This document shows, piece after piece, positions 2 to 19,437 of a DNA stretch of 52,898 bases. Source of the DNA: Chthoniobacterales bacterium (GTDB lineage Bacteria; Verrucomicrobiota; Verrucomicrobiia; Chthoniobacterales; JACTMZ01); the NCBI GenBank assembly GCA_021463515.1, contig JAJTYZ010000049.1, forward strand, positions 1 to 52,898, given 5' to 3'. Numbering within the stretch: the first letter of the stretch is position 1; the number at the start of each line of letters is the position of its first letter. A model generated the notes under the pieces. It made no database searches. It was not told the origin of the DNA and worked only from the letters and a program-made list of their open reading frames with translations. Position numbers and translations under genes: made by a program.

Positions 2-337
2 GAAAGTGCGGATGCCTATGGACGCGACTGTGACCAATGGCCAAAGTTTCGCACCGAGTCCGCAGAAAAACTTCTCACCCATGTGGATAATTTTCTTCGC
101 TATCTCGAAGTGCAGGGAGTGACGCGCAGGGTTCTTGCGTTCTATTTTCATCCCTGGGAATTCCATCCCATGCCGCAGGGCGTAATTCATTTTGGCGAAG
201 GCGGTGTCGTGCCCGATCCATTTATCACCGCCAACTGCGGCGACTATGCGTTGGAGCAATTGGACGCGCTCCTGACCGGCCTGAAAGCCCGTGGTGCTCG
301 TTTCAAAACAGCCGCGCAGATCGCTTCCGAAACGTAA
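2..337 (+). CDS. C-terminal part of a polysaccharide-deacetylase-like protein (5' truncated by window)
   Basis: The frame is open from base 2 and stops at 335-337, so only the last 111 codons are visible. The motif FHPWEFHPMP, followed by a C-terminal stretch ending in a helix with GLKARGARFKTAAQIA, resembles the C-terminal part of polysaccharide deacetylase (NodB-like) domains. In those a His-Pro segment lies near the active site and the last helix covers the barrel. The catalytic N-terminal half is outside the window, so substrate and localisation cannot be judged. The next gene begins 16 bases downstream on the same strand, suggesting one transcript. The family call rests on one motif and the fold-like ending. 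Confidence 0.55.
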   Translation, partial: ESADAYGRDCDQWPKFRTESAEKLLTHVDNFLRYLEVQGVTRRVLAFYFHPWEFHPMPQGVIHFGEGGVVPDPFITANCGDYALEQLDALLTGLKARGARFKTAAQIASET

Positions 338-353
338 TCACTCAACACATCTC

Positions 354-2417: not shown

Positions 2418-2837
2418 TCAGGTTGTCAGCTTGAGTTTTACTCCTGCTTCGCGGCAGGCGGTGATGAGTGCTTTGTCCCGTGTTGCCAAGGGGAGACCTC
2501 GGCGCAGTGCAATTTCGAGATATGCCGCATCGTAGGTGGAGAGGCCATGCCGGAGTGCGAGGTCCAAAGTCTTGTCCCACGAACGGGACAGCGCTTCGGG
2601 ATCCGCGGTAATCTCAAGATTTCGAAGCAAGGAAACGAAAGCTTCAATGCCTGCTTGATCAATCCGCTTTTTCCGCAGTGCTCCAAGCAACACATTACCC
2701 ACTTCCAAGGGCCAAATTGCAGGAACCCACGCCTTTCTTCCATCCACCATTTCCTTCAGCAGCCCATCCGTGGCCGTGCAGGCTTCATCTCCAAAGACCC
2801 AGGGTAATGCCGCAGAGCAATCGAGAACAAAACTCAT
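2418..2837 (-). CDS. vapC: VapC-family PIN-domain ribonuclease toxin
   Basis: This 139-residue protein has the usual length of VapC. The PIN-domain acidic residues are recognisable: D6 in FVLDCSAA, E45 in WPLEVGNVL, D103 in STYDAAYLE and D121 in LATRDKAL. These would bind Mg2+ for RNA cleavage. The gene overlaps the upstream antitoxin gene by four bases (ATGA), the normal arrangement for vapBC, so toxin translation is coupled to antitoxin. The pair lies inside a glycan-utilisation region and is surrounded by short palindromic repeats, consistent with acquisition as a module. The RNA target cannot be read from sequence. Confidence 0.92.
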   Translation of the reverse strand: MSFVLDCSAALPWVFGDEACTATDGLLKEMVDGRKAWVPAIWPLEVGNVLLGALRKKRIDQAGIEAFVSLLRNLEITADPEALSRSWDKTLDLALRHGLSTYDAAYLEIALRRGLPLATRDKALITACREAGVKLKLTT

Positions 2838-3591: not shown

Positions 3592-3605
3592 ATGAAACGT
3601 TTCAT
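3592..3605. promoter_or_regulatory. LacI-family operator (perfect 14-bp palindrome)
   Basis: ATGAAACGTTTCAT is a perfect palindrome with the central CG typical of LacI/GalR-family operators. It lies just upstream of the preferred start of the LacI-type gene (3622), inside the longer reading frame. That placement argues that this stretch is leader and not coding, and that the regulator represses its own operon. Confidence 0.7.
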
Positions 3606-3607
3606 GC

Positions 3608-3621
3608 GAGAAATGTTTCTC
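3608..3621. promoter_or_regulatory. Second operator-like palindrome abutting the regulator start codon
   Basis: GAGAAATGTTTCTC has 6-bp perfect arms and ends one base before the ATG at 3622. Together with the site at 3592-3605 it forms a tandem pair about one and a half helical turns apart (centre to centre 16 bp). It is weaker in the centre (TG instead of CG) than the first site. Confidence 0.5.
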
Positions 3622-4767
3622 ATGACCCCTGCCCTCGAAAAACCCCGGCTGAGCATCCGCGATGTGGCCAAGCGCGCCAACTGCGCGTTGGGCAGCGCGT
3701 CGAAGGTGCTCAACGGCAGCCTCGAGGTTTCCCCGGCCATGAAAAAAAGGGTGCTGAAGGCCATGGAGGACATGGGCTACGTCCCCAACCGCCATGCGCG
3801 CAACCTGAAATCCGGCCGCACTTACCGCTTGGGACTATTGATGCCGTTTGCCAGCGACCTTTACTACGCCACACTGCTCGATGCTTTTAATGAAACGGTC
3901 ATGGAGACCAACTACCGGCTGGATGTGCAGCTTCACCGCTGGATAGAAAAGGAAGAAGATGTGGCGATACGATATTTTGTGGAGTCAGGAATGGAGGGGG
4001 TGATCCTGCATCCTTGCCGAACAAACTATGAAAATGTCGCCAATATCCGATTGCTTGAGCAATACCGTATTCCTTGTGTCGTTATGGGGCCGCAGGGAAT
4101 ATGCAATCTCCCGGATACCGTTTTTCGGGGGATGCAGGATTTGGCCAGTGGCATGGAACTGCTGGTGAAACATCTAGCTTCTTTGGGGCATCGCAAGATC
4201 GCCCTGCTGCTACCTGCTTCCAGCAGCAAACAGTTGGGGATGCATGAGCGCCTTGACGGAGCAAAGAGAGGGGTTGCGTCTTATCAGGGGGTTAAGCTGG
4301 AAGTTATTTATATGCGAGCAGGTAGCGATAACGTTCCTTCGCAGAAAGATTTCAAAACCTACGGTATTAGCATCACGGATTATCAGGACTATGTGAGCAA
4401 GTTAGTAAAGAAATTTCTAAGTCAAAAAAAAGGGGTGACGGCGGCCATTACCGTCAATGAAATTACCGCGTGGATGCTGATTACCGCCTTGAAAGAGGGA
4501 GGATTCCGCGTGCCCGAGGATTTTTCCGTGGCGACGCTGGGGCTTTCCAATACGGAACATTTCGGCGGCTTTCCGCTGACCATGGCGGAGTATTCGCCCA
4601 TGGACATCGCGCAGTGCGCTCTGGACGCGTTGCTAAAAAAAATCGAACCCACGCTTGTTCCCCCTTCCTTGGTGGTTCGCCGCTCCTCTGCTCCCGTCTG
4701 CTTTTCCTCTCCGGGGCAACCCGAAGAACCTCAAAACAACAACAAACACGAAAGACAACAAACATGA
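3622..4767 (+). CDS. LacI-family transcriptional regulator
   Basis: This is a 381-residue one-component sugar regulator. The N-terminal helix-turn-helix and hinge helix are clear: LSIRDVAKRANCALGSASKV, then LNGSLEVS and MGYVPNRHARNLKSGRT. A periplasmic-binding-protein-like sensor domain follows, with landmarks such as YRLGLLMPF, RKIALLLPA and FSVATLGLSN. Upstream in-frame starts exist, including 3592, but the operator-like palindromes at 3592-3621 favour 3622. The gene overlaps the PEP-CTERM gene by ATGA at 4764-4767, so the regulator is the first gene of the operon it probably controls. The ligand is not predictable beyond a sugar released by the downstream enzymes. Confidence 0.9.
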   Translation: MTPALEKPRLSIRDVAKRANCALGSASKVLNGSLEVSPAMKKRVLKAMEDMGYVPNRHARNLKSGRTYRLGLLMPFASDLYYATLLDAFNETVMETNYRLDVQLHRWIEKEEDVAIRYFVESGMEGVILHPCRTNYENVANIRLLEQYRIPCVVMGPQGICNLPDTVFRGMQDLASGMELLVKHLASLGHRKIALLLPASSSKQLGMHERLDGAKRGVASYQGVKLEVIYMRAGSDNVPSQKDFKTYGISITDYQDYVSKLVKKFLSQKKGVTAAITVNEITAWMLITALKEGGFRVPEDFSVATLGLSNTEHFGGFPLTMAEYSPMDIAQCALDALLKKIEPTLVPPSLVVRRSSAPVCFSSPGQPEEPQNNNKHERQQT

Positions 4768-5672
4768 AAACAACTGAAAGCTCCCTGAAAGGGATCATCA
4801 GCCTTGCGATGGCAGGAATCATCATCGCGGCATTCGGCGCTGGAACTGCACGAGCAGCCACAGTGATTCATTACGACTCCGTCAATGGCAATTATACGGG
4901 CGGAAAAGCTGCTCCCTTTGGCGGTACGAATAATCCACACTTCACGCTTCCCACGCCGGTGGACAATGGAAAGACGCGCACTTGGAAATACAGCGATACC
5001 ACGCCCATCAGCCCGACCAATGGCTATACGGGGCCCGCCATCTATACAGTGCTGCAAACGGTGGGAGTCTCAAGTGCACAGGATTTTTGGTATAAGAGCG
5101 GAATCAATAACGGGCTGGGGACGACAAACTCCTTTGTTGTCGCGGGGGAATATCAGAGCACCGTGACGGCGATGGTTTTTTTCAAGCCGACGGTGAATCT
5201 AGGCGAGACGGTCTCGTTCGACGCTACAAGCTCCATAATCCTTAATATGTTGGTGGCTCAGGATTCTCACACCAATTGGTTTAATGAGAACCTTCGGTTT
5301 GTTGTTCAGAACGAGGGGCTGTGGTATATTTCTCAGTCCCCATTTTACACTTCCACTAACACGACTTGGACATTGACCAACGTCGGCTCCGCTAATTTTG
5401 CCTTGTTCGATCCGGAGGATAAGGCCCCTTTGCCCACGATCCCGGCATCGGGTTACACGTCTCTAGGCTCCAGTTTTACGAATATTACTGGGGTGGGATT
5501 TTATGCTGATTCTTTTGGGCGCACCAACAATTATCCTTATATGTCACTGAACGACTTTGCGGTGAACGCCACCATCATACCGGAGCCCGCCACGATGGCT
5601 CTGTTGGTCTTCGCGGCGGTCTCGGTGCTTGTTTTCGCCCGCCGTCGCAAGTCCACGTTCTTGAATTCCTGA
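4764..5672 (+). CDS. PEP-CTERM sorting-domain protein
   Basis: This 302-residue exported protein begins with a signal peptide: a charged start, the hydrophobic stretch IISLAMAGIIIAAFGAG and the site ARAA. It ends with a textbook PEP-CTERM tag: the PEP motif in IIPEPATMALL, a hydrophobic segment, then RRRKS. Such tags are recognised and cleaved by exosortase during export, in species that make extracellular polysaccharide. The middle (about residues 33-270) is Thr/Ser/Asn-rich, beta-type and has no recognised domain. The start at 4764 overlaps the LacI stop by four bases. Its place behind a regulator and ahead of glycan enzymes suggests a surface glycan-binding or adhesion role. That is inference. 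Confidence 0.88.
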   Translation: MKTTESSLKGIISLAMAGIIIAAFGAGTARAATVIHYDSVNGNYTGGKAAPFGGTNNPHFTLPTPVDNGKTRTWKYSDTTPISPTNGYTGPAIYTVLQTVGVSSAQDFWYKSGINNGLGTTNSFVVAGEYQSTVTAMVFFKPTVNLGETVSFDATSSIILNMLVAQDSHTNWFNENLRFVVQNEGLWYISQSPFYTSTNTTWTLTNVGSANFALFDPEDKAPLPTIPASGYTSLGSSFTNITGVGFYADSFGRTNNYPYMSLNDFAVNATIIPEPATMALLVFAAVSVLVFARRRKSTFLNS

Positions 5673-5681
5673 TACAATACA

Positions 5682-6464
5682 ATGAAACTTTCCTCTTTAT
5701 TTTTAGCTGTTCTGTTCACGCTTGGCGTGGACTTCCCTGTGCAGGCTGATGAGCTCCTCTTCGACGAAAACTTCGACGACGTCCCCTATGCGGACAATCA
5801 GCCGCTGCCCGAGTGGAAGGACAACAACAATGTAGGTGTGGTCGGACGGTGGTTGGTTACTGCGACGCCGGATCGAGGGATGGCGCTTACCGTGCCGGAG
5901 CAATCCGTTTCCGCGCCCCGTTCGCTGCGGTTAAACGTGACAGAATCACCCGACCCCATGGAAGCGGGAGTGACGGTCTGTGGAACCTTCGCGGATAACA
6001 AGACCAAGATCATCGCGGTGCCAGAGGCCATCACGCTGACCTTGGCATTCCGCATTGAGGATCCCGAGTGGAGAAGAAAAGGGGCGTTGCAAGTGGAGAT
6101 TATGGGAAGCTATCTCACGCCCGATCAAAAACCAAGAATGCCGGCGCAGTTGCGAATTAACTCTAAAGGAGAGCCCTTCGTGGAAGTGAATTTTGGGGGT
6201 AAGTGGACGAAAATTCCAGAGCCGATCGAATACGGAAAATGGCATCGCCTCGAAATCACCCTGCCTTCGAATCCCGCAAATGCAGAGGCCGAATATACCG
6301 TTCGCCTCTCCGATGTGGACGGAAAGACCGATCTGGGTTCGGTCAGCGGACCTCTGGCCGCGCCGTCGGAAACCGATATGTATGGCTATTTCTTCATCCA
6401 CAACTCCATGCCCGGCACACCCGTTTATATTGATGATGTATTGGCTATCCGCGGCGAGTCGTAA
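5682..6464 (+). CDS. Secreted concanavalin/LamG-like protein
   Basis: This is a 260-residue protein with a signal peptide (LFLAVLFTLGVDFPVQA, cleavage near residue 22). The mature part starts with a jelly-roll-like pattern (LLFDENFDDVPYADNQPLPEW) and ends with SETDMYGYFFIHNSMPG and TPVYIDDVLA, where a final strand carries an Asp pair. This layout matches concanavalin-A-like beta-sandwich proteins that bind or cleave glycans (LamG, or the 3-keto-disaccharide hydrolase-like group). No catalytic residues can be assigned. It starts 9 bases after the PEP-CTERM gene and is in the same operon. A carbohydrate-binding role is the likeliest. Confidence 0.7.
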   Translation: MKLSSLFLAVLFTLGVDFPVQADELLFDENFDDVPYADNQPLPEWKDNNNVGVVGRWLVTATPDRGMALTVPEQSVSAPRSLRLNVTESPDPMEAGVTVCGTFADNKTKIIAVPEAITLTLAFRIEDPEWRRKGALQVEIMGSYLTPDQKPRMPAQLRINSKGEPFVEVNFGGKWTKIPEPIEYGKWHRLEITLPSNPANAEAEYTVRLSDVDGKTDLGSVSGPLAAPSETDMYGYFFIHNSMPGTPVYIDDVLAIRGES

Positions 6465-6556
6465 GCAGCCGATGATAGTACCCGGAGCTATTTTGCTCAG
6501 GATGTCCTCATTTCTTCGAGTCGGCTTCGATTTGCGAGGTCATCATTATCTTCCTT

Positions 6557-9500
6557 ATGAAAAATAAAGCCCTCATTTTCCTCATTTTCTTTCTCTCCGC
6601 AGGTATCCTATCTGCAGACAATGTCGCCCTCGGGAAAAAAGCTACAATAGCTCCCTCGTCCAACTATTCACTCTGCACCGATTCGGAAGACGCCGCGCAG
6701 CTAACCGATGGGAAGACATCCGAGGGAAGGATATGGACACAAAAGTCCACAGTAGGCTGGACGAGCGTCAATCCGAACATTGTAATTGATTTAGGCAGGG
6801 TGGAGCCCATCGAAAGCGTAACGATTCACAGCGTCGGGGGCGGCGTAGCCGGTGTGTATTTTCCCAAGAAAATCACGGTCTATGTTAGCGATGACAATAT
6901 AACTTTTTATGAGGTGGCGCAAATGACGTCTGCGGGGCTCCAGCAGGACGCAGTGGAATCCTATACGCATTTCTTTTCCGCTGCGGGGTTGAAAACACGG
7001 GGGCGCTATGTGATGGTTTGCCTCCAGCAGGCAGGATACTTCCTCTTTGTGGACGAGATTGAGGTAAATCGGGGGGATTTTGATCCGGCATCCGTGGTAT
7101 TTTCTGGTCGGGCCGTCAGTGGTGCGGAGATTCAGTTCGACGCGCTCGGTCTGATACCGGAATCGTACACGCGCGGCCACTTTCCCGAGACGCCGCATGT
7201 AGCTTGGGCCATACCGCTGGCGGGTCGTCCACTACGGGCAATCTTGGTGAATAACTACAATACCATGCGCGAAATGGTGGAAGTCGCCCAACGCCTCGGC
7301 ATGGATTATACCCCCGTACCGTTCCTTGATCCTTTGCCGTATTTATCGGAGGAATTGATCACTGCCAACCTAGCAGACTGTGACGTGCTGGTGGCAGGCG
7401 CAATCAACTGGAAGGCCCTGCCGCCAGAACTGCTTGAAAAAATTCTGACCCGTGTCCGCGAAGGCATGGGACTGGTCTGCGTCACCAATGACAATGGCTC
7501 TTGGATAGAACCGATTCAGAGTCTCCTTAATGAGAACCCGCTGCCAGATGATCAGCATCTCCTCGACCTTGTGCCGATGACACTGATCCCCGGTTACCAT
7601 GCACCGCCCGGCGATGCGCATTTCACGCTGGCCACATACGGAAAAGGTCGCGTGGCCCTGCTGAATTCCGCCAAGTTCACCCGCCCGGCCAGCTTCCTAA
7701 TGCCGGCGTTTACACACGAGGATTATATCGAAAAGACAAACGGACCGCTTGAGTATTGGTTCGCGGCGTTCAACAAACTTGTGCTCTGGACGGCTAACCG
7801 CGACAAACAGTTGATCTCAAAAATCGAGGCCACACCAGAAAAAATCGCGGTGGAAATCACGCCCGGCCACGTGGGGAAACTGCGGGTGATAACACGCGAC
7901 CCGTTTTTCAATCCGGTGGCAACCCGGGAGGAGGCCGTCTCCCTCTCGGGCGGACGCTTTGAGTTCCAGCCGCCGACGGGCTTGCAAGGAATCCATGCCG
8001 TGGATGCGTGGTTGCTCGATGACAAGGGCGCGGTGCTGGATTTCGGTTCGTCTTTTTATCAACGACAAGGAGAAAACCGCCTCACGGCGATTCAGGTGGA
8101 GAAAACGCTTTTTGCTGCGGGTGAACCAGTCACCGCCATGGTAGAAGTGCAAAAACCGGCGGAAGGTCTCGTACTGCGTGCGTCGCTTTTCGATACGGAC
8201 GGCCGCGAGGTTTCCGCCCCTCAAACGCTACCGATCGGTGCTGACGGAAAAGTTGCGGTGAGCCTACCCTATACACATCCGCTCACGCTGGGAGCCACGC
8301 TCAATATCGAACTTTTACGGGACGAAAAGGCACTCGAAATCCAACGCCGACGCGTTTGGGTGGAAGTACCAGACTCGCATGATTTCACCGTCATGGGATG
8401 GGGCACTAGTGCTGGGGTACAACCGGTGGCGGCCGCCCTCTTGGCAACCCTGCGCAATCTTGGTGTGGATGGTATTGTCGTTACTTATGTACGTGCAAAT
8501 ATAAATAATGCGCCTAACGCTGCGCTGGCCAATCTCCGTCTCGCTCCCGAAAACGTTGCCCGCGTTGCCCCGCCAAATCCTCCAGATAAGAATGGAATTC
8601 GCGTCCCCAGCCTGAGCGACCCCGCGCATCAGAAACAGGTCGAGGAAATACTCCAAGCTCTGACTAGGGACACACGGCCCTTCGGCGTGACAGAGTGGTC
8701 GCTCGGCGACGAGGAGAGCTTGGGCGGGCAGGGCGAGGAATACGATTTCTCGCCGGATTCTCTCGCGAAGTTTCGGGAATGGCTAAAGGGCCAATATGCC
8801 GACCTTCGGGAGCTGAACGAAAGCTGGGGGAGCAGTTACAAAGATTGGGCAGAAGTGACGCCCTCCATGCTAAAGCAGGTAAAGCCCAAGGAAAGCCTCG
8901 CACCGTGGCTCGACTTCCGGCGGTTTATGGAAACCGTCTTTGCCGACTACCATGCGAGTGCCGATCAAATCATCAAAGCCGAAAACCCCGCCGCACGCGT
9001 GGGATTCTCCGGCTCGCAAAATCAGGATTCCTACAACGGCTACGATTGGTGGAAATTGATGAAGGCTGTGGACCATGTTTCCGGCTACGTTGGCGTGCAG
9101 TCCGCACTGCAACGCAGCTTTCTGCGTCCAGGAGCATTTTGGACCACCTTCATCGGCTACGACTACAACGATACTGGCGAGCAGCAGGCCCATGCGCAAC
9201 CGTGGAAGGTGCTCTTTAATGGGGCGAACGGCGTGAATTATTTTGGGCTGATGCACCTGTGGCAGATTTGCGGTCTCCTTCGTAACGATTTCAGCCCAAC
9301 CAAAAAGGCCGGATGGTTTTTCCCGGAAATCCGGGAATTGAAAGCCGGAACAGGGCGGCTTTTCATGGAGGCAGCGTATGAGGACGACGGCATTGGAATT
9401 CTTTACTCTCCTTCGAGTGCTCATGCCGCCACGGTTTCCGGCCTCGCCGATACCGCGAACACGCGAAGAAATTTTGGCATCAATCAAACCAATCTTGCGA

Positions 9501-10642
9501 AGCTCCTAAGTGAGTCGCACTACCAATATCGCTTCGTCCATGAGGAGCAGTTGGAGCGAGGGGAACTTTCGCGCTTCAAGGTGCTGTTTCTGCCGTGGAG
9601 TTCCGCCCTGAGCGACGCGGAAGCGACGGCGATCCGACAGTTCGTTAAGGATGGAGGCACCGTCATCGCCGACTCATTCGCAGGCGTACGCGATGGACAC
9701 GGAAAACCCCACGCCATGCTCGAGGATGTGTTCGGCATCGTGCAACCCCTCAAAGCCCCCTCCCTCGTGGAAGGAGCACTCGAAGTGACGGACGCTGGGT
9801 TTTCTGGCCCGAAAAAAGTTTTTATCACCACCGGGGTTACCGGTCTGGAACTCAAGGGCGGTGAAGCGCGGGGCTCGGTGCGTGGCGCGCCGGCCTTCAT
9901 CGTTCACTCCTACGGAAAGGGCCGCGCCATCTTCTTAAATGCGAATCTCTCGAATTACTCCAAGCAAACTTCGGGCGGCGAGGGCGGGGAAATCGAAAGA
10001 GGCGACGATGCAGCGCAATCTGTCAGCGCACCGATTCGCGCCTTCATGACGGCTTTGCTTACGGAGGCCGGCGTGCCGGTGCCACTTCCCGTGCGAAGCG
10101 GTGAGGTGGAAAATTCGGAAATCGAACTTTCGCGCTTTCGGCTCGGCGATGCACGGCTGCTCGGTGTGCTGCGTGCCATCAGAGGCGAAGCACTCGACCC
10201 TGATAACCGCGAGGATGTCACTCTCGCCCTCGGACGGCCTTGGCACGCTTATGATATCCGCGCGGGAAAATACCTCGGCGAAACCGACATAATCCGTGAA
10301 TCGCTCCCGCGGGCAACCGCCAAGGCGTATGCGCTGCTTCCTTACAAAGTGAACGCGGTCACGGTGTCCGGACGGGGGCAGTTTGCGCGGGGAGAGACAG
10401 CTGTCTTCCCAATTACGGTGGTCGCCGACGGCCAGCCCGGCAAACACGTGGTTCGGCTAACGGTGGCGGGACCGGATGGAAAAGAACGCCCGTTATATGC
10501 GCGGAATCTCGTCGCACCCGGCGGCAAGACGGAGGCCGTCATTCCCTTGGCTTGGAATGATCAGGAAGGGGAATGGACGATCACGGCCAAGGATGTGGCT
10601 ACGGGTGTCGTCGGGAGGAAAACTATTCAGCTGAAGAATTGA
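6557..10642 (+). CDS. Large secreted GH42-like glycoside hydrolase with N-terminal F5/8-type domain
   Basis: This is a 1361-residue protein with a signal peptide (IFLIFFLSAGILSADN). Residues about 22-175 form an F5/8-type C (CBM32-like) domain: VALGKKATIAPSSNY, then QLTDGKTSEGR, IVIDLGRVEPIESVTIHSV and RYVMVCLQQAGYF. An alpha/beta glutamine-amidotransferase-like segment and beta-sandwich regions follow. A (beta/alpha)8 barrel runs from about residue 610, with EWSLGDEESLGG near residue 719 as the probable acid/base region. The segments FREWLKGQYADLRELNESWG and YKDWAEVTP are typical of GH42/GH5-clan enzymes. A beta-galactosidase trimerisation-like domain follows (VLFLPWSSALSDAEATAIRQ, then DGGTVIADS). 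It probably cleaves a beta-linked polymer or oligosaccharide outside the cytoplasm. The family assignment is inferred from these segments and the substrate is unknown. Confidence 0.75.
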   Translation: MKNKALIFLIFFLSAGILSADNVALGKKATIAPSSNYSLCTDSEDAAQLTDGKTSEGRIWTQKSTVGWTSVNPNIVIDLGRVEPIESVTIHSVGGGVAGVYFPKKITVYVSDDNITFYEVAQMTSAGLQQDAVESYTHFFSAAGLKTRGRYVMVCLQQAGYFLFVDEIEVNRGDFDPASVVFSGRAVSGAEIQFDALGLIPESYTRGHFPETPHVAWAIPLAGRPLRAILVNNYNTMREMVEVAQRLGMDYTPVPFLDPLPYLSEELITANLADCDVLVAGAINWKALPPELLEKILTRVREGMGLVCVTNDNGSWIEPIQSLLNENPLPDDQHLLDLVPMTLIPGYHAPPGDAHFTLATYGKGRVALLNSAKFTRPASFLMPAFTHEDYIEKTNGPLEYWFAAFNKLVLWTANRDKQLISKIEATPEKIAVEITPGHVGKLRVITRDPFFNPVATREEAVSLSGGRFEFQPPTGLQGIHAVDAWLLDDKGAVLDFGSSFYQRQGENRLTAIQVEKTLFAAGEPVTAMVEVQKPAEGLVLRASLFDTDGREVSAPQTLPIGADGKVAVSLPYTHPLTLGATLNIELLRDEKALEIQRRRVWVEVPDSHDFTVMGWGTSAGVQPVAAALLATLRNLGVDGIVVTYVRANINNAPNAALANLRLAPENVARVAPPNPPDKNGIRVPSLSDPAHQKQVEEILQALTRDTRPFGVTEWSLGDEESLGGQGEEYDFSPDSLAKFREWLKGQYADLRELNESWGSSYKDWAEVTPSMLKQVKPKESLAPWLDFRRFMETVFADYHASADQIIKAENPAARVGFSGSQNQDSYNGYDWWKLMKAVDHVSGYVGVQSALQRSFLRPGAFWTTFIGYDYNDTGEQQAHAQPWKVLFNGANGVNYFGLMHLWQICGLLRNDFSPTKKAGWFFPEIRELKAGTGRLFMEAAYEDDGIGILYSPSSAHAATVSGLADTANTRRNFGINQTNLAKLLSESHYQYRFVHEEQLERGELSRFKVLFLPWSSALSDAEATAIRQFVKDGGTVIADSFAGVRDGHGKPHAMLEDVFGIVQPLKAPSLVEGALEVTDAGFSGPKKVFITTGVTGLELKGGEARGSVRGAPAFIVHSYGKGRAIFLNANLSNYSKQTSGGEGGEIERGDDAAQSVSAPIRAFMTALLTEAGVPVPLPVRSGEVENSEIELSRFRLGDARLLGVLRAIRGEALDPDNREDVTLALGRPWHAYDIRAGKYLGETDIIRESLPRATAKAYALLPYKVNAVTVSGRGQFARGETAVFPITVVADGQPGKHVVRLTVAGPDGKERPLYARNLVAPGGKTEAVIPLAWNDQEGEWTITAKDVATGVVGRKTIQLKN

Positions 10643-11490
10643 AAAAAGGATCACAGAGCACTCGAACGGCGATCCATAACCGCAGGAAGAATGCGGCGGA
10701 CATCGTCCGCCGCTACGGGTTTCCGTCCGCCCGCGGTTTCACTCTTATGGAGTTACTCACGGTGACAGCCATCATCAGCCTGCTCGCTGCGTTTTGTTTC
10801 CCGGTGGTAAAATCATTTATTGACCGGGCCAACGGTGCTAAATGCGCCGGTAATCTGAGACAATTGGGTGCTGCCTCTGCTCTCTATGTACTGGATCATA
10901 GTGGCTTCCTGCCGGTCACCTTTTCGAAGAATTTGGCCACAGAAGATATGTCCTATACCGCCGGAGGAGCGTGGTATTGGTTGATCGCGCCGTATGTGGA
11001 CGTTCCTCGATGGGAGACGATCAAAAGCTATTTGGGGCCACAAGGCAGCCGAGGCATTACAGCACCTAACATCTTCTGTTGTCCGAGCCACGACAAGTAC
11101 GAGGTTAAGCCGCTGGTCTTTCCCTCATACGACCCGATCAGCTACGCGCCTTCCACCCAAATAGCCACGCCCATGATGGTTAAATCTCCGATGGAAACCA
11201 CGCCGACGTTACAAACATGGGGACTACGCTTCCAAGATATCAAAGAGCCGGGCCGGAAGATTTGGCTGTCAGATTCTGCCTTTCCCAATATTAATAACGT
11301 ATCGGCCAGCAGGTGGAGCGATCCGTCCAACAATGGTTGGGCGCGTATAGCGTTCTCACGGCATGATGGCGCGGGAAATGTACTGTTTTATGACGGCCAT
11401 GTGGAACGCTTCCCGCCCTCGCTTATCCTCAACGGCGATATCTCCCAGAATATTCTAAACTTTTTCGATCCCACCCGTGAAATCAAATAA
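10639..11490 (+). CDS. Type II secretion/prepilin-like protein with C-terminal DGH motif
   Basis: This is a pseudopilin-like protein. A leader of about 30 residues ends in ARG and is followed by FTLMELLTVTAIISLLAAF, the prepilin peptidase site and hydrophobic helix with Glu at +5. Then come KCAGNLRQLGAASALYVLDH and, near the C-terminus, SRHDGAGNVLFYDGHVERF. This is the His-to-Asp-Gly signature of the DUF1559-like pseudopilins abundant in Planctomycetes and Verrucomicrobia. I chose a TTG start at 10639 that overlaps the preceding stop (TTGA). An in-frame ATG at 10573 would overlap the previous gene by 70 bases and cannot be excluded. Its role in a glycan operon is unknown; surface display or secretion is plausible. 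Confidence 0.8.
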   Translation: MKKGSQSTRTAIHNRRKNAADIVRRYGFPSARGFTLMELLTVTAIISLLAAFCFPVVKSFIDRANGAKCAGNLRQLGAASALYVLDHSGFLPVTFSKNLATEDMSYTAGGAWYWLIAPYVDVPRWETIKSYLGPQGSRGITAPNIFCCPSHDKYEVKPLVFPSYDPISYAPSTQIATPMMVKSPMETTPTLQTWGLRFQDIKEPGRKIWLSDSAFPNINNVSASRWSDPSNNGWARIAFSRHDGAGNVLFYDGHVERFPPSLILNGDISQNILNFFDPTREIK

Positions 11491-13966
11491 CCTGCTGAAC
11501 GGCTGTCTTTCTCCTGATATTAGTATCGAAAACGTGGTGATCCGGTTGCCCCGGACGGCCGCGCCGTTGCGGATTCCGTGCATTCCCGTCCGGCTCGTTT
11601 TTGAGAACATCCGGCTGGATCGCTTCACCATCGTTTCCGACGAAGCCTCGCCGGAGGCGCGGATTCTGTCGGGGGATATTGCTTCGACTGGATTAAAATT
11701 TCACGCCGAATGGAAGACCTCTCCCGAAGGTTGGATTCGCTTTGTATTTCGTGTAATCGGGGAACCGGATCCGGCGTGGGGGGAATTTCAGAGACTGATT
11801 CTTCTCGATCAAGAGATGCCTTCGACGGATCTCCGCTCCGATCTTGGCTGGCGGGAACTTGGCGGAAGCTCGGAAGAATCCCTCGAAGATCGCCCGCCCG
11901 AGGAAGGTGGCGGGTTGCTGCCTCCCTTCGGCTACCCTGTTTTTGGCCCAGATTTTTTCCTCGGTGCGGAACATCCTATGGCCTGCATCGAGGCCTCGGC
12001 AAACCGCGTCCGCATCTTTCATCATCCGCTTTGGGCGGAGGGGGAGTTGTGTAGCATTCCGCTGGTCATCGGAGTATGCGGTGCGGAGGAAACGCCGACG
12101 GAGGCGTTTGCCCGGTATTTTGCCTCCATCCGCCGGCCCGCGCCGAAACGCGCCATCGTCGAGATCAACACGTTTTGGACGGATCCGTATGATTCCACAA
12201 CGGGATACAGCACGGATATTGCGAGCTATCGCACTATGGCGGAATGTTGGGCAAAGGAAGTGTTGGGCGGAGAAAAAGGGTTGGTGTCCCATTTTATGCT
12301 GGATGCAGGCTGGCAGAATCAGAACTCGCTGTATCGTCCACAGGCATCGAATGGCGGTCCGAGTGACAACTCGCTGGCGGAGTTGGGCAGGGCTATGAAA
12401 GCCTTGGGATTGCAATTCGGTCTGTGGTTTTCGCTGAATGGACCGATGGGAGTGGATATGGACTGGGCTACTGCAGAGGGCTATCGCGTTTCAAACCAAG
12501 GAACCGGCGCAGGCTACGGCAATAATCACGGTAAAACCCGCTATGCCTGCCTGACGGATGTACGTTGGGAGGAAGACCTGAGCCGAAGATTCGAAGAGTT
12601 GATCAGCCATGTCCCAGTGATGTTTTTAAAGGGAGATTGGGACAATGACGCCGTGGAGGATCCGGTGAAATTTTCAGGCGGAGCAACTTCTCCATGGCAA
12701 TTGCGCGAAGCCATTGCCAACGCCATGATTCGCATTTACCGGCGTATGCATGCTGTTCGCCCGGACGTGGCCCTACGTGGTGCCTGGTGGCTGAGTCCGT
12801 GGTGGTTTTCGCATGTGGACAACACCCACCTACCGAATTCCGGCGACCATGAGGGTGCAGATGTCCCCAGTTTGACGCAACGCGACTCGGGAATCACGTG
12901 CCGGGACGCCGTGTATCATCACGTCATGGTGCGTTCAGCCAGTCCTGTTTCCTGGGATGTCCTCTGCCCTCATGAATTTGCTTCTTCGTGCCGCAATCCC
13001 GTGCAGGATACTGAGGATAGTTGGATGAACAATCTGGCCATGTGGATTTCCCGTGGCAGCCACTATCTGCAGCTTTATCTGGCTCCCTATGGTATGGACG
13101 ACATAAAGGCTTGGTCCCTGCGCGAAATCCTACGCTGGTTCCGTGCGGACGAGGCACTGCATTGGAAGAATGGCACGACCATGTTGGGTGGCGATCCGCT
13201 CTGCGGCCACGTTTATGGTTATTATCACCAATCGGAAGGGCGTCATTTGCTGACGATCCGCAACCCGCAGGCGCACCCACAGGCCCTGCCGTACTTGGAG
13301 AGATGGGGATTACCTGCGGACGGCTGGGAGCAGGTCTTTCCGTATTGTCGAATGTTTTCGGCAAAGGGGCATTGCATGGCGGGTCATGAGGTGTTGATGC
13401 TCGTTCGCGGCAAGGATTCCGTGGGCGAGCGGATTCTGGTCAACACTCCCCAAGGGTGGCATGAACCGAGGCCAAGAAACAGCGTTCCCATCCTGCATGA
13501 AATCGAAGAGCCGGCAGCGCGGTTTGAATGGTTGTCGCCCTCGAAGCTGGCGATTCATGCCGCCCTGCCGTATGGACTGGCTTCCGCCGAGGTCGTGCTT
13601 TTAATCCGTGCGGGTGAGAACCGCCGCTGGCGTGCCGCCGTGGGGCGTTACCCAGAAGATATCGCATCCTTCAACGTACCCCTGACTCATGTTCGTCCGC
13701 ATTGGCAGCATGGTTTTGCGCAGAAACGGCTGAAGGCGCGGGCGTGGGACCCCGGCGCAGGTGTGCTGCGTTTTCCCATCGGGATCGGCGGTTTTGCCCA
13801 TGCCTTTCTCTGCGGAGACGAGGGGCTCCCTGAAATCCTCGGCGGGTGGATCGAGGTCCGGGAAGCTCTTCGGCGGGTTGAGGTCGCCCCGCCGCTTAGC
13901 CGTCCGCCGGCGATGAGCCATCCCGTGAGATGTCTGTTGGAAATTCAGAAAGAAAGCACACCTTAA
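11477..13966 (+). CDS. GH36/GH27-like glycoside hydrolase (alpha-galactosidase-like), cytoplasmic
   Basis: This 829-residue protein has no signal peptide. An N-terminal beta-sandwich (about 1-225) precedes a TIM barrel: IVEINTFWTDPYD, SHFMLDAGWQNQ, LGLQFGLWFSLNGPMGVD, PVMFLKGDWDND and ALRGAWWLSPWWF. The strand ending in KGDWDND sits where GH36/GH27 enzymes carry their Asp nucleophile. A C-terminal beta domain follows. It likely hydrolyses an alpha-linked oligosaccharide after import. The start overlaps the pilin gene by 14 bases. The family assignment is by motif and fold rhythm, and the substrate specificity is not known. Confidence 0.72.
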   Translation: MKSNNLLNGCLSPDISIENVVIRLPRTAAPLRIPCIPVRLVFENIRLDRFTIVSDEASPEARILSGDIASTGLKFHAEWKTSPEGWIRFVFRVIGEPDPAWGEFQRLILLDQEMPSTDLRSDLGWRELGGSSEESLEDRPPEEGGGLLPPFGYPVFGPDFFLGAEHPMACIEASANRVRIFHHPLWAEGELCSIPLVIGVCGAEETPTEAFARYFASIRRPAPKRAIVEINTFWTDPYDSTTGYSTDIASYRTMAECWAKEVLGGEKGLVSHFMLDAGWQNQNSLYRPQASNGGPSDNSLAELGRAMKALGLQFGLWFSLNGPMGVDMDWATAEGYRVSNQGTGAGYGNNHGKTRYACLTDVRWEEDLSRRFEELISHVPVMFLKGDWDNDAVEDPVKFSGGATSPWQLREAIANAMIRIYRRMHAVRPDVALRGAWWLSPWWFSHVDNTHLPNSGDHEGADVPSLTQRDSGITCRDAVYHHVMVRSASPVSWDVLCPHEFASSCRNPVQDTEDSWMNNLAMWISRGSHYLQLYLAPYGMDDIKAWSLREILRWFRADEALHWKNGTTMLGGDPLCGHVYGYYHQSEGRHLLTIRNPQAHPQALPYLERWGLPADGWEQVFPYCRMFSAKGHCMAGHEVLMLVRGKDSVGERILVNTPQGWHEPRPRNSVPILHEIEEPAARFEWLSPSKLAIHAALPYGLASAEVVLLIRAGENRRWRAAVGRYPEDIASFNVPLTHVRPHWQHGFAQKRLKARAWDPGAGVLRFPIGIGGFAHAFLCGDEGLPEILGGWIEVREALRRVEVAPPLSRPPAMSHPVRCLLEIQKESTP

Positions 13967-13968
13967 AA

Positions 13969-14772
13969 ATGAACGGCGCAACCATCGAACCCGCCGAAAT
14001 CCTTCAGACAAATTCCGCCATTGGCGAGGCTGGGAAAATCCATGTTTATCTTCCGTCCGCTTCGGAGTACGGTTCATGGCCGTTTGTCTTCGCCATCCAT
14101 GGCGGCGGATGGCAACAGGGCGATCAGAGGTCCTATTCACATATTGCACCCAAATTTCTGTCCCTTGGCGTCGCGGTCGTTCTGGCGAGTTATCGCCAGG
14201 CGCCGGAGTTTCCCTTTCCTGCTGCCTATGATGATCTGGTGCATGGACTGACGTGGCTCGTGCAACACGGTGGCAAACACGGTTTGGATGTCACACGGTG
14301 CATGCTTTTCGGCAGCTCGGCAGGGGGCCATCTGGCCATGCTGCTGGCCACTCGCGCAACGGCGGAGAATTGCCCTCTGCCCATGCTGCGTGGAGTGGCG
14401 ACCTGTTGTGGTATCATGAACTTGACGGAGCAATTTGAATGGGATGCACGGCGAAACAGTCCGATGACACGGGATTTTCTTCAGGCGACACCGGAGGAAG
14501 CGCCCGAACTCTACCGACTAGGCTCACCCATCGCGCATGTGCATGCGGATATGCCGCCGGTCTGGATGACGCACGGGGACGCGGATACGGTCGTTTCCAT
14601 CGAGCAGTCGCGCAGAATGGCCGTGCGACTAAAGGAAGCGGGACACCATCCAATTTTTCATGAAAACTTTGGAGCCGATCATATTCTGACGCAAGGCGAA
14701 CCGCCGGCGTTGGTTTTCGAGACCGAGCTTCTGAAATTCACCAGAAGAGTTCTTGGAGCGGAAACATCATGA
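13969..14772 (+). CDS. Alpha/beta hydrolase (BD-FAE/HSL-like esterase)
   Basis: This 267-residue cytoplasmic enzyme has an oxyanion-hole motif HGGGW (residues 44-48) and a nucleophile elbow GSSAGG with Ser117. The candidate acid is Asp in MTHGDADTV (about 206) and the His is in GADHILTQ (about 238). This is the layout of the hormone-sensitive-lipase and carbohydrate-esterase-like branch. The start 13969 lies two bases after the previous stop; an upstream in-frame start at 13930 would extend the overlap. It ends in an ATGA overlap with the oxidoreductase gene. In context it probably removes acetyl or feruloyl-like esters from the imported sugar. Confidence 0.82.
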   Translation: MNGATIEPAEILQTNSAIGEAGKIHVYLPSASEYGSWPFVFAIHGGGWQQGDQRSYSHIAPKFLSLGVAVVLASYRQAPEFPFPAAYDDLVHGLTWLVQHGGKHGLDVTRCMLFGSSAGGHLAMLLATRATAENCPLPMLRGVATCCGIMNLTEQFEWDARRNSPMTRDFLQATPEEAPELYRLGSPIAHVHADMPPVWMTHGDADTVVSIEQSRRMAVRLKEAGHHPIFHENFGADHILTQGEPPALVFETELLKFTRRVLGAETS

Positions 14773-15689
14773 AGATTGGGCTCGTTGATCTGGACACTTC
14801 GCATCCTGAAGCCTTTGTGCCGCTGCTTCGTGAACGCGGACACGAAATCGCCGGCGTTTGGGATGGGGGAAGTGTGCATCCGGCGGGATTCGCGCGAGAA
14901 TTTGTGGGAAAAAATCAAATCCCCAAGGTTTTTGAAAAACTGGAAGATATGGCGAACGAAATAGACGGCGCTATCGTTCATGCGTGCGACTGGGACACGC
15001 ATGTTGAAAAAGCGCGCCTGTTTTTGGACGAGGGTAAAAGCGTGCTTGTGGACAAACCCCTAGCGGGCCGGTCATCCGATCTCGGCGTTCTTGCGCAATG
15101 GGTCGCGCAGGGACGGCGCATCGCGGGAGGTTCGGCGCTGCTCTATTGCGTGGAAGCTGCGGAATGGAAGGTGTCCGCCACGGATGAACGGGGGGAGTTG
15201 CGTACGGTTTTTTGCGGGTGTGGGGTGGATGAATTCAACTACGGTATCCACGGCTATGCGATGGCCTTGACCTTTGCGGGGTTCGACGTCGAGTCGGTGC
15301 AGTATCTCGGCCCGTCCGGACGGCAGAATGTCATCGAGCTGTCCCACACTTCCAGCGTACGCTCCATTCTCCAAATCGGGCCAAGCGAGGCATGGCTACC
15401 CTTTTATGCCACACTTGTAACCACCCGGCAGGTGCGGCAAGTCACGGTAGACTCGAGCAAACTCTACGCGGCACTGCTTGATGCGACGCTTCCTTTTCTG
15501 GAGGGCAAAACGGATGTGCCGCCCTTGGCTGCGGACGCGCTTATTTTGCCCGAACGTTGCGCGCTGGCCGCACTGGCCTCCAAACAATCCGGCGGACGCA
15601 CCGTGCCGCTCTCCGAAATTCCCGTGACGGCCTACGATGGCGCAGCCTTCGCCCGAGGCTACCGGGCGTCCAAATATCCATCCTTATGA
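14769..15689 (+). CDS. Gfo/Idh/MocA-family oxidoreductase
   Basis: This 306-residue protein has an N-terminal Rossmann region (MKIGLVDLDTSHPEAF) and the conserved Lys-Pro motif in SVLVDKPLAG (usually EKP), followed by a C-terminal alpha/beta substrate domain. The usual glycine-rich GxGxxG is replaced by VDLDTSH, a variant seen in some sugar-modifying members. It would oxidise or reduce a sugar, sugar acid or inositol-like substrate with NAD(P). It overlaps both neighbours by ATGA, so its synthesis is tightly coupled to the esterase and the 2-hydroxyacid dehydrogenase. Confidence 0.8.
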   Translation: MKIGLVDLDTSHPEAFVPLLRERGHEIAGVWDGGSVHPAGFAREFVGKNQIPKVFEKLEDMANEIDGAIVHACDWDTHVEKARLFLDEGKSVLVDKPLAGRSSDLGVLAQWVAQGRRIAGGSALLYCVEAAEWKVSATDERGELRTVFCGCGVDEFNYGIHGYAMALTFAGFDVESVQYLGPSGRQNVIELSHTSSVRSILQIGPSEAWLPFYATLVTTRQVRQVTVDSSKLYAALLDATLPFLEGKTDVPPLAADALILPERCALAALASKQSGGRTVPLSEIPVTAYDGAAFARGYRASKYPSL

Positions 15690-16696
15690 CCAAACCCCGC
15701 GTTCTCCTTGCCATCAACCGCCGATGGTTTTCTTCCGTGATGTCCCCGGACGATCTCACCCGCCTGCGCGTTCTGGCTGACGTGCTCAATGACGATCCAC
15801 CCGCGCAAATCACGAAGGATTTTTTAATAAAACATCTGCCTTCTGCAGATATCGCGTTGACCTCATGGGACACCGCGCGATTCGACGAGGATGTTCTCGC
15901 GGCCGCGCCAGAATTGAAACTCGTCTGCCACGCGGCCGGCAGCGTCCGGCCCATTGTGAGCGGCGAATTTTGGAAAAGGGGCATCCGCGTCACCAGTTCC
16001 GCCGCTGCTATTTCCCACGGTGTGGCGGAATTCTGCCTTGGGCTCATTCTGATGGCATCCAAGCGCGTTTTCTGGCTCGCGCAGGGAGCCCGCCGGGGCG
16101 AGTGGATGGAAGGCGCGGCGGGGTTCGGCGGCATGTTTGAACTCTACCGGCAGAACGTCGGCGTCATCGGCACGGGGCACATCGGGAAACACCTGATCCG
16201 GCTGTTTCGGAATTTCGACTGCAAGGTCCTAGCTTATGATCCTTATCTAAGCTCGAAGTCGGCTGCGAAACTCGGCTGTGAGAAGGTGGAAACGCTGAAC
16301 GAGCTTTTCAGCCGATGCCGGGCCGTGAGCCTTAACGCTCCCAGCAACGAAGGCACACGGCACATGCTGCGCGGGCAGCACTTCGCGACACTGCCCAAGG
16401 GGGCGGTGTTCGTCAACACAGCGGGCAGCATCCAAATTCACGAAACGGAATTTATTGAAGAACTGCGCAAGGGGCATTTTGTCGCCTGCATAGACCGCTG
16501 CGAAGTGGAGCCGTGCGCGCTGGATCATCCCTATCGCACCCTGCCTAATGTCATCCTCACTCCGCACATTGCCGGGGCTGCCGCCGACAACCTGCAGCGG
16601 GTGGGAACCTGCGCGGTGGATGAAATCGAGGCATTCGCCAGCGGACGGAGCCTTATTCACGAAGTCACCGAAACGAGCCTCGCCACCATGGCCTGA
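15686..16696 (+). CDS. D-2-hydroxyacid dehydrogenase family protein, catalytic Arg apparently missing
   Basis: This 336-residue protein has the NAD-binding motif IGTGHIGKH (residues 161-169), the YDPY strand ending in the ribose-binding Asp185, catalytic Glu275 in EVEP and catalytic His294 in TPHIAG. At the position of the catalytic Arg in the usual N-T-A-R-G, this protein reads NTAGS (244-248). That would impair classical hydride transfer or indicate another substrate mode. The start at 15686 overlaps the previous stop by ATGA; a longer frame from 15557 would lie inside the preceding gene. It probably acts on a 2-keto or 2-hydroxy acid from the same pathway. Confidence 0.82.
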   Translation: MTKPRVLLAINRRWFSSVMSPDDLTRLRVLADVLNDDPPAQITKDFLIKHLPSADIALTSWDTARFDEDVLAAAPELKLVCHAAGSVRPIVSGEFWKRGIRVTSSAAAISHGVAEFCLGLILMASKRVFWLAQGARRGEWMEGAAGFGGMFELYRQNVGVIGTGHIGKHLIRLFRNFDCKVLAYDPYLSSKSAAKLGCEKVETLNELFSRCRAVSLNAPSNEGTRHMLRGQHFATLPKGAVFVNTAGSIQIHETEFIEELRKGHFVACIDRCEVEPCALDHPYRTLPNVILTPHIAGAAADNLQRVGTCAVDEIEAFASGRSLIHEVTETSLATMA

Positions 16697-16700
16697 TCTG

Positions 16701-17531
16701 ATGAAAGCCTATATCCATACCGACATTGAAGGCGTGGCCGGCTGGGTTTTTTATGCACAGACCGCACATTTTGGCCTCGCGAACTGGCATCACACGCAGC
16801 GAATGAACCGGCTGTTGACGGCGGAAGTGCTGGCCGCAGTCCGTGCCTTGGAAGCCGATGGATTCACGGAAATCTATGTCAACGACGCGCACGGCTACGG
16901 ATACAGTCTGCTCTTCGAGGAGTTTCCGGAGTCCTGCCGCATCATTCATGGGAGAGGTGGTCACGGGCCGGGCTGGACTCCGTTTCTGGATGAGACCATT
17001 AATATTTCTATAGCCATCGGCCAGCACCCGATGGCCGGAACGCCTTGCGGCAACTGCAATCATTCCATCTGGCTGCTGACCGATGGAAAAGGCAACGAGC
17101 ACACTCTCAGCGAAACCACAATGTTTGCACTGCTGGCCGGAGTCAAAGGGGTGCCGCTGGTGATGGTTTCCGGTGACGACCTGCTCTGCAAAGAAGTAGA
17201 GCAAAAGATCGAGGGCTGCGCTTTGGCACCGGTCAAAACCAGCCTAGGCCTGCAAAACGCTTGTACCCTCTCGCCCGCCGCTTCCCGAAAATTAATTGGC
17301 GAAAAGGTGCGCGAGGGCATTACGAATCGTACGCACACCCGCCCGTTCGTCCTGCCCGATCCTTTCCGGCTCAATGTGGCCGACCGCGATCCTGCCAAAC
17401 CGGAATTGGAGCAACCTCTGGAAGGCGATGACATTTGGAAACTCATGCACGCCGTCTGCAACCGGACTTACGCAAAGTTCGGCAATACGGATGCAGTGGA
17501 TGACCGCACCTTCCGCTGGCCACCCCTATAA
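16701..17531 (+). CDS. M55-family D-aminopeptidase (DppA-like)
   Basis: This is a 276-residue zinc peptidase homologue. The metal-binding set can be read as D8 and E10 (TDIEGVAG), H64 (NDAHG), H109 (IGQHPMAG) and E138 (HTLSETTMF), matching the DppA arrangement. DppA releases D-alanine or D-amino acids from peptides. It is the last gene of the operon, starting four bases after the dehydrogenase stop. A D-aminopeptidase at the end of a sugar pathway is unexpected and could mean the substrate carries an amino-acyl or amide group. The start at 16701 is chosen because the longer frame from 16548 overlaps the previous gene. Confidence 0.88.
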   Translation: MKAYIHTDIEGVAGWVFYAQTAHFGLANWHHTQRMNRLLTAEVLAAVRALEADGFTEIYVNDAHGYGYSLLFEEFPESCRIIHGRGGHGPGWTPFLDETINISIAIGQHPMAGTPCGNCNHSIWLLTDGKGNEHTLSETTMFALLAGVKGVPLVMVSGDDLLCKEVEQKIEGCALAPVKTSLGLQNACTLSPAASRKLIGEKVREGITNRTHTRPFVLPDPFRLNVADRDPAKPELEQPLEGDDIWKLMHAVCNRTYAKFGNTDAVDDRTFRWPPL

Positions 17532-17782: not shown

Positions 17783-19087
17783 TTACTTTTTCAAAAAGGA
17801 CAAACGGTGGGCGCTTTGGATTCGGTTTTGCCGTTCGTCTGATAGCTTCGCGGATGAAGCAAACTGCGCCCAATTTTTTACCGCAGCAATTACCTCGTCG
17901 AGAATTGTCAAGGCTCGCCCACGTTTCATCAAGGCGGCCTTCGCCACCGCCTCAAAGTCTGAAAGCGTGAAACCCTCCCGCTTTCCATTAAACGTCATTT
18001 GATGATTGGCCGTCCATGCGCCGCGAGAATTGTAATTATATGTCACATCAAAAGCAGGGGCGAGCGACCATTCCCCCCGCCGATTCATGAGGAAGGCGAT
18101 ATTCTTTACATGGTCATCTTGATTGCGTGCCACGATGTTGAAAGCCATGCGGCGAAATAGCTCTTCCACCGAAGCCATCGGCAAACCAAGCTGTCGAGCC
18201 GCCAAAAGGGCTTGCTCGCAGGAATGAGCACCTGCTTGCTGGAAATCAAGATGCGCCAGAGCACCCAGCGACTGCATGTGCAACTTCTCCCCGTCCCGCA
18301 AACGGTCAAAGCGCTGCGTCATAAAATGCCGCCGTCCATTTTCCTCCAACAATCGGCATTCATTCATCTCAATCCCTGCCTCGACCGCCATCAAATGATA
18401 TGCAAATTCGACGGCACCATACCCCTGAGCATCCTCTAATTCTTTGTCCTTGTTGCCTGCCACGCCGTCAAATTTCAGCAACCAATAATCAAAACCGGCA
18501 CCTGCGGCGACTTGCCCGGAACGCACTTCGTTGGTCACACGATTCCAAGCAATCACAGCCTTCGCTCGCGCCCCTCCCGCCGAGGTTCCCACACTCAAAA
18601 TATTACGCAACGCGTGGGCCTTACCAGCCGCATGAAAATGCTCTCGAAGGTTGGAACGATGCGCTAGCACTTCCGCCGCCAAGTCCACCAAGGCATCCAC
18701 GACAACTTTGGAAGACCTCTGGGGACGAGGACCGAGCACCGGAGCATACTCCAATGCCCCCATACCTCTTGTTCCTGTATAACAAAGGCGTTCCACCGCA
18801 TTAAAACTCTCCGGCAAACGGCCTTGGGTGGCCAACCAAGCATCCACCAGCGCATGGCCAAATTTATCCGGCAAGGAATCCGCCAAAAGCCCCGGCAAGC
18901 CGTAAAAAGTAGGGCGCGGCAACGAAGAAAACTCATAGACCCGGTTGCTTAAGGGCATCATCAATGGAGCCACCTCAATTCCACTACGTGCGAAATCCGC
19001 ATCGTATTGAAACCGCGCCACCTCGCGTTCAGCATCAAGCTCTACCGCGCCAATCGTGCGCCCCCACAGCTTAACCCGCGCAATCAT
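17783..19087 (-). CDS. hipA: HipA-family serine/threonine kinase toxin
   Basis: This 434-residue protein matches the length of HipA. It carries an N-terminal subdomain, the ATP-binding loop region GTSAGGARAKAVI (167-179), the catalytic motif RNQDDHVKN (321-329) and the metal-binding Asp in LAPAFDVTYNY (342-352). All key residues appear intact. HipA kinases phosphorylate glutamyl-tRNA synthetase or related targets and slow growth. It follows hipB with a four-base overlap on the reverse strand. The gene's end lies close to a GGTGGG stem-loop around 17740-17761 that lacks a T-tract. Confidence 0.93.
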   Translation of the reverse strand: MIARVKLWGRTIGAVELDAEREVARFQYDADFARSGIEVAPLMMPLSNRVYEFSSLPRPTFYGLPGLLADSLPDKFGHALVDAWLATQGRLPESFNAVERLCYTGTRGMGALEYAPVLGPRPQRSSKVVVDALVDLAAEVLAHRSNLREHFHAAGKAHALRNILSVGTSAGGARAKAVIAWNRVTNEVRSGQVAAGAGFDYWLLKFDGVAGNKDKELEDAQGYGAVEFAYHLMAVEAGIEMNECRLLEENGRRHFMTQRFDRLRDGEKLHMQSLGALAHLDFQQAGAHSCEQALLAARQLGLPMASVEELFRRMAFNIVARNQDDHVKNIAFLMNRRGEWSLAPAFDVTYNYNSRGAWTANHQMTFNGKREGFTLSDFEAVAKAALMKRGRALTILDEVIAAVKNWAQFASSAKLSDERQNRIQSAHRLSFLKK

Positions 19088-19437
19088 TTTGAATCACCCC
19101 ATGTCCATTTTTGCAAAGGAGCAATGGAGACCTTCCGGCCAGCCGCACGCTGACGTTGACGTCCTTTCTGCTTAAGTTGCGCCATAGGACTTGGAGTTGA
19201 CACGGGCAAAACCGCCACGAAACTCTCCAGCATCCCAAGCACCCGGCAAACCCGCAAAAAACTCGAAAGTTGCGTTGCCACTTCCCCCGATTCCAAGCGC
19301 TCTACCGTTCGCTTAGACACCCCCGCTTCTTCGGCTAATTGCGCTTGCGTCAAATCACGCTCAAGACGCACCCGCGCCAAACGTCGCCCCAATTCTTGAA
19401 TCAGAGCCTCCGTAGTAAGATGTGGTGTTATCTGCAT
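19084..19437 (-). CDS. hipB: HipB-like XRE-family antitoxin
   Basis: This 117-residue protein has a clear helix-turn-helix (LARVRLERDLTQAQLAEEAG, then VSKRTVERLESGEVATQLSSF, residues about 20-60). A basic, Gln/Arg-rich C-terminal tail follows. It would bind DNA upstream of its own gene and neutralise the HipA kinase. It overlaps hipA by four bases. The promoter region carries similar 14-base direct repeats (see 19444-19497) that could be its binding sites. Confidence 0.9.
   Translation of the reverse strand: MQITPHLTTEALIQELGRRLARVRLERDLTQAQLAEEAGVSKRTVERLESGEVATQLSSFLRVCRVLGMLESFVAVLPVSTPSPMAQLKQKGRQRQRAAGRKVSIAPLQKWTWGDSK

Follow-up and report, generated by a model that had tools for sequence, protein, structure and literature searches.

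The 52,898-nucleotide stretch of DNA analysed here (the window) is the entire contig C85 of a 2.11-Mb metagenome-assembled genome (MAG; completeness 66%) of a Chthoniobacterales bacterium. Ten co-directional genes on its plus strand, at positions 3622-17531, encode, in order, a LacI-family regulator, a PEP-CTERM protein, a lectin-like protein, a GH42-like protein, a pseudopilin, a possibly GH36-like enzyme, an esterase, two dehydrogenases and an M55 peptidase; the co-directional run that a first-pass annotation had described is thus indeed present. We consider it probable that this operon is an inducible, substrate-specific glycan-utilisation locus, and that it represents one copy of a multiplied module in which a constant "surface" part is joined to a variable "enzyme" part.

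The pairing of pilin and PEP-CTERM genes recurs throughout the genome. About 30 PEP-CTERM matches and 11 to 12 LacI genes were found, together with a set of 22 pilins comprising 19 H-X9-DG matches at a loose threshold and three added by sequence similarity (on C64, C16 and C23). A same-strand PEP-CTERM gene lies within 6 kb of 15 of these 22 pilins, against 1.8 expected (P ~5e-12), and none of the 22 has one on the opposite strand within that distance; this strand-specific excess led us to reject chance co-location. Similarly, of the 11 LacI genes, 6 lie no more than 4 kb from a pilin on the same strand, where 0.45 would be expected (P ~2e-6). The P values are approximate, the null model being uniform placement, and the co-location statistic uses curated-model matches, the weakest of which fall below the curated cut-offs, plus the three pilins found by similarity. 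GntR-type regulators occur at C134, C129 and C77, and the enzymes beside the pilin/PEP-CTERM pair vary from GH42-like to GH31-like (weak), GH114 with F5/8-type-C, pectate-lyase/beta-helix and DUF4838-like. Many of them have no Pfam family, and the recognisable cargo is mostly carbohydrate-active. Motif-based scans of raw open reading frames, which make some false calls and some misses, placed a PEP-CTERM gene on the same strand at 10 of 17 pilin loci in G049 (3 on the opposite strand) and at 9 of 13 in G026 (1 on the opposite strand), both genomes being of the Terrimicrobiaceae type, i.e., of the family of the MAG DTUVER3.

It is in DTUVER3 that the order of the first five genes is conserved. 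Its locus L158 reads GntR, PEP-CTERM, lectin-like, GH42-like (46% identity) and pilin, which is the order of the window, and a permuted paralog in the window's own genome is found on contigs C72 (L033) and C134 (L091 1-7000), apparently parts of one locus broken across contigs, with the order lectin, GH42 (50%), pilin, GntR, PEP-CTERM and GH31-like. The last five genes, from the GH36-like to the M55 gene, differ between sister loci, and the ten genes were therefore rejected as a single conserved unit; the L158 contig stops after the pilin and is uninformative on this part. The conservation of gene order by which the first-pass annotation proposed to check its operon holds for the first five genes and is not supported for the last five, the 829-aa GH36-like protein being full-length in 0 of 97 relatives, with partial 30% matches in G016 and G065 only.

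An operator-like site stands at the head of the run. The LacI gene (3622-4767, plus strand) exceeds the cut-offs of both family profiles (PF00356, 45.3 bits against 27; PF13377, 63.9 bits against 26.5), which agrees with the earlier assignment. However, its start, earlier placed at 3592, is probably at 3622, because a start at 3592 would enclose within the gene the perfect palindrome ATGAAACGTTTCAT (14 bp, 3592-3605), which is CG-centred, lies directly upstream of LacI and directly after TTGCAA, and occurs in a single copy in the genome. This uniqueness led to the rejection of sister operators sharing the palindrome. CG-centred perfect palindromes of at least 14 bp number 12 in 796 kb of the genome, and four of them are tied to LacI genes; counted from the genes, 3 of 11 LacI leaders contain such a palindrome, against 0.10 expected from shuffles. 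At C64, CTTAACCGGTTAAG precedes the LacI gene in the same layout as in the window, TTGCAA and then the palindrome, with another sequence. On contig C23, the 20-bp perfect palindrome TATTAAACACGTGTTTAATA occurs twice (L097 2830-2849 and 8855-8874), one copy at the LacI gene and the other 6 kb away, upstream of a 613-aa gene and the neighbouring operon; the two are likely a LacI operator pair. These sequences fit local, private LacI operators, of which they would be candidate sites, and the palindrome lends support to the proposal of a LacI-controlled glycan locus.

The ten genes are tightly spaced, with intergenic distances of -4, +9, +92, -4, -14, +2, -4, -4 and +4 nt in order, and no promoter- or terminator-like sites above background were found on the plus strand between them. 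The overlaps comprise three ATGA, one TTGA and one of 14 nt; thus, ATGA overlaps exist as previously described, except that the fourth four-base overlap is TTGA, from which the start codon of the pilin is taken to be the TTG at 10639.

The export of three of the products, proposed earlier, is borne out. The PEP-CTERM, 260-aa and 1361-aa proteins each show a signal peptide, and the pilin shows a type IV prepilin leader. The 302-aa PEP-CTERM protein (4764-5672, plus strand, overlapping LacI by ATGA) combines its signal peptide with a PEP motif, a transmembrane helix and a basic C-terminus (IPEPATMALLVFAAVSVLVFARRRK), and matches TIGR02595 at 21.4 bits (cut-off 16); the Pfam model PF07589 scores 19.6 bits, 1.1 short of its cut-off of 20.7. 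Two exosortase genes (PF09721, E 2e-47) lie in the genome outside the operon, and exosortases are found in 10 of 10 congeners. The 260-aa exported protein (5682-6464, plus strand) has no Pfam match, and its homologs are located in loci L033, L091 and L158. An AlphaFold model made with three sequences is all-beta, with a mean predicted local distance difference test (pLDDT) score of 53, and Foldseek returned mostly legume lectins and other concanavalin-like folds as the best PDB matches (E ~1e-6); this is suggestive of a concanavalin-lectin-like beta-sandwich, and sugar binding is predicted from this low-confidence model. No homolog of the window's PEP-CTERM ectodomain was detected by sequence in loci of the same genome. 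The PEP-CTERM proteins of L158 and of the C72/C134 paralog carry the same domain as the 260-aa protein of the window, which links the lectin-like domain to the anchor.

The pseudopilin (10639-11490, plus strand), with its C-terminal H-X9-DG motif, exceeds the cut-offs of TIGR02532 (25.7 bits against 16.3) and of the H-X9-DG model TIGR04294 (25.1 bits). A search of seven congeners gave only 1 to 4 strong H-X9-DG matches, against 13 in this genome, although all of these genomes are well supplied with PEP-CTERM genes; this points to a lineage-specific expansion of the pseudopilins. As for filament machinery, a single PilT/PilU-like ATPase gene (L235 17146-18231, minus strand) scores below its curated cut-off, and none of its neighbours was recognised as a pilus gene; profile searches found no PilM among the operon proteins, and a crude pattern scan of 38% of the genome returned no SusC-plug motif.

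Among the enzymes, the 1361-aa exported protein (6557-10642, plus strand), which also has a trimerisation domain, matches PF02449 at 54 bits (profile positions 102-258 of 376), PF08532 at 37 bits and PF00754 at 33 bits, so that GH42 and F5/8-type-C are both over cut-off, and it aligns with beta-galactosidases in the PDB at E values down to 1e-10. On these sequence matches, the GH42 assignment is sound at the domain level. Residue E719 (WSLGDE) sits in the expected acid/base region and is kept in close homologs and in one Victivallaceae protein; the predicted structure was not used to locate the active site, the model having a pLDDT of 52 and a predicted template modelling score (pTM) of 0.39. 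The 829-aa cytoplasmic enzyme (11477-13966, plus strand) possibly belongs to clan GH-D. Its earlier label "GH36-like" is unproven at family level, the Melibiase match reaching 10.8 bits against a cut-off of 27, and neither a named relative nor a PDB sequence match was found for it. The families are clear for the remaining genes, i.e., an alpha/beta hydrolase resembling BD-FAE and acetyl esterases (13969-14772; PF20434, 126 bits; HGGG and GSSAG motifs), a Gfo/Idh/MocA-type oxidoreductase (14769-15689; PF01408, 33 bits) and a D-2-hydroxyacid dehydrogenase (15686-16696; PF02826, 140 bits), each dehydrogenase gene overlapping its predecessor by ATGA, and a DppA-like M55 D-aminopeptidase (16701-17531; PF04951, 164.8 bits, over cut-off) that does not reach the NCBIfam DppA equivalog cut-off; all four lie on the plus strand and score above the cut-offs of their Pfam families.

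From family knowledge and sequence, the following mechanism may be proposed. LacI bound at 3592-3605, over its own promoter, would repress the ten-gene transcript, and a sugar freed from the target glycan would lift this repression. The lectin-like, PEP-CTERM and large F5/8-type-C/GH42-like proteins would then be exported, the PEP-CTERM protein being sorted to the envelope by an exosortase encoded elsewhere, and the pseudopilin would join a filament like those of type IV pili or type II secretion, likely holding or drawing the glycan near the enzyme. Fragments would enter via a transporter outside the operon, and their breakdown would be completed in the cell by the GH36-like enzyme, by the esterase, which would take off side chains, and by both dehydrogenases together with the M55 peptidase. 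The substrate is perhaps galactose-containing and esterified. Glycan binding, the job of the pilin and the uptake route are all steps that we infer, and the one most in doubt is the role of the pilin as a capture filament or as a secretion adaptor.

Several observations weigh against reading the operon as a glycan-utilisation locus of a multiplied module. The nucleophile glutamate of GH42 is not recognisable by sequence in the 1361-aa protein, a distant Lentisphaerae homolog (ADurb) does not retain the acid/base region, and this GH42 subfamily is rare: among 213 genomes of the order, 2 contain full-length members, with two copies in each. The lectin-like model is of low confidence. In DTUVER3, the automatic scan, which overlooked the L158 operon, placed a PEP-CTERM gene near 1 of 7 pilins, and the genome counts given here are minima, the MAG being 66% complete. 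The expression of the locus and its binding of glycan are predicted from the genes. Finally, the operon has no transporter gene and also lacks an exosortase and a prepilin peptidase, so that the earlier description of it as "self-contained" is not supported, the exosortases being elsewhere in the genome. Nor is there support for the earlier proposal that a sorted surface protein and a pilin-like protein replace SusCD: the crude scan of 38% of the genome returned no SusC-plug motif, but other Verrucomicrobia employ TonB-dependent loci (PMC5615132).

A broader reading, which we put forward tentatively, is that a PEP-CTERM anchor, often lectin-bearing, and a dedicated pseudopilin constitute a plug-in capture or secretion unit of Chthoniobacterales-type Verrucomicrobiota, which would functionally take the place of SusCD; each genome would have over ten copies, whose LacI/GntR regulators and operators are private and whose enzymes can be exchanged. 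Somewhat unlikely, in our estimate, is that the pilin is instead a substrate-specific (minor) type II secretion pseudopilin which exports the co-encoded large enzymes over the outer membrane, with the PEP-CTERM protein only tethering the product. The best match of the pilin N-terminus is indeed GspG, but at 31.7 bits this match is far under the equivalog cut-off of 88.9. The pilin gene is nearly always beside a large exported enzyme, and one pilin per enzyme would suit a cargo adaptor; the C38 pilins, however, adjoin PEP-CTERM genes without a large enzyme, and no secretin was found in the crude scan of 38% of the genome mentioned above.

Remodelling of the cell's own exopolysaccharide would make the PEP-CTERM, lectin-like and pilin proteins matrix components and the enzymes trimmers of a self-made glycan. 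PEP-CTERM proteins were discovered through their association with exopolysaccharide production (PMC1569441), and a PGA_cap capsule-type gene is present in the sister locus C134. However, every copy of the module comes with a LacI or GntR regulator of its own and with differing degradative enzymes, here with cytoplasmic catabolism too, as expected for foreign substrates, and the operon contains no glycosyltransferases; we regard this explanation as improbable. That the pilin and PEP-CTERM genes are unrelated passengers in a LacI catabolic operon could be argued from the abundance of both families in such genomes, but it is very hard to reconcile with a pairing that is far over chance, strand-specific and recurrent in Terrimicrobiaceae-type genomes, and with the order conserved in DTUVER3.

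A second LacI-associated cluster adjoins the run. The window's 625-aa gene (291-2168, plus strand), whose product has no PDB sequence match, has a homolog in L159 of DTUVER3 (E 5e-27). Contig C63 (L098), once reverse-complemented, overlaps by its last 87 bases exactly with the start of the window, and thereby contributes, before the 625-aa gene, a divergent LacI gene, an M24 creatinase-like peptidase, an ASRT-domain protein and a polysaccharide deacetylase. In L159, the 625-aa homolog lies between a GH42 paralog (53%) and a deacetylase, both behind the GH42 paralog. Since L159 joins these three genes, both LacI clusters may serve one pathway. The run is preceded by a PIN-domain gene (2418-2837, minus strand) and followed by a convergent HipA/helix-turn-helix pair (17783-19437, minus strand), both toxin-antitoxin-like.

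No description of the pilin/PEP-CTERM pairing, or of the repeated unit of regulator, PEP-CTERM protein, pseudopilin and enzyme, was found in the open-access literature, which is not proof of novelty. The recurrence of the pairing with different regulators and enzymes suggests a little-described arrangement of sugar-scavenging genes. Its strand-specific, multi-copy nature, together with the local sugar-type regulators and the glycan enzymes, offers a testable proposal for the role of H-X9-DG pseudopilins and of most PEP-CTERM proteins of the phylum, and the pairing may serve as a genomic signature for locating glycan loci in bacteria where the SusCD pair is unseen.

Among known systems, the operon may be compared with the SusCD-type loci of Bacteroidetes, which likewise combine co-transcribed surface glycan-binding proteins, exported and cytoplasmic degradative proteins and a sugar-responsive regulator, and which likewise exist in many copies per genome with differing enzymes. 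Those loci use SusC/SusD and SusR or hybrid two-component control, whereas here a PEP-CTERM protein, a lectin-like protein and a pseudopilin occur with LacI/GntR control, and profile searches found neither SusC TonB receptor nor adjacent SusD lipoprotein domains among the ten operon proteins. Freshwater Verrucomicrobia have TonB-dependent CUT loci (PMC5615132), i.e., carbohydrate loci of the same phylum with regulators and exported glycoside hydrolases; these are built on TonB-dependent receptors, whereas this operon has none. The canonical PEP-CTERM tails and EpsH-type exosortases of this genome agree with the PEP-CTERM/exosortase system as described (PMC1569441), where most PEP-CTERM genes form operons of one gene and are controlled, in Proteobacteria, by sigma-54, whereas here many are in multigene operons, some of them headed by LacI or GntR. 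In the "fishing rod" hypothesis for planctomycete pili (Boedeker 2017, reviewed in PMC12078418), pilin-like proteins are also proposed to bind whole polysaccharides; the hypothesis involves neither a PEP-CTERM pairing nor local LacI/GntR operons. Pilus-based glycan attachment in Akkermansiaceae, through a type IV-like pilus and the MUL2 locus (PMC13174399), similarly ties a pilin-type protein to glycan attachment in Verrucomicrobiota. However, MUL2 comprises four genes at one locus and includes PilM, whereas here H-X9-DG pseudopilins are many, the locus has no PilM, and most of the pseudopilins adjoin a PEP-CTERM protein and often their own enzymes.

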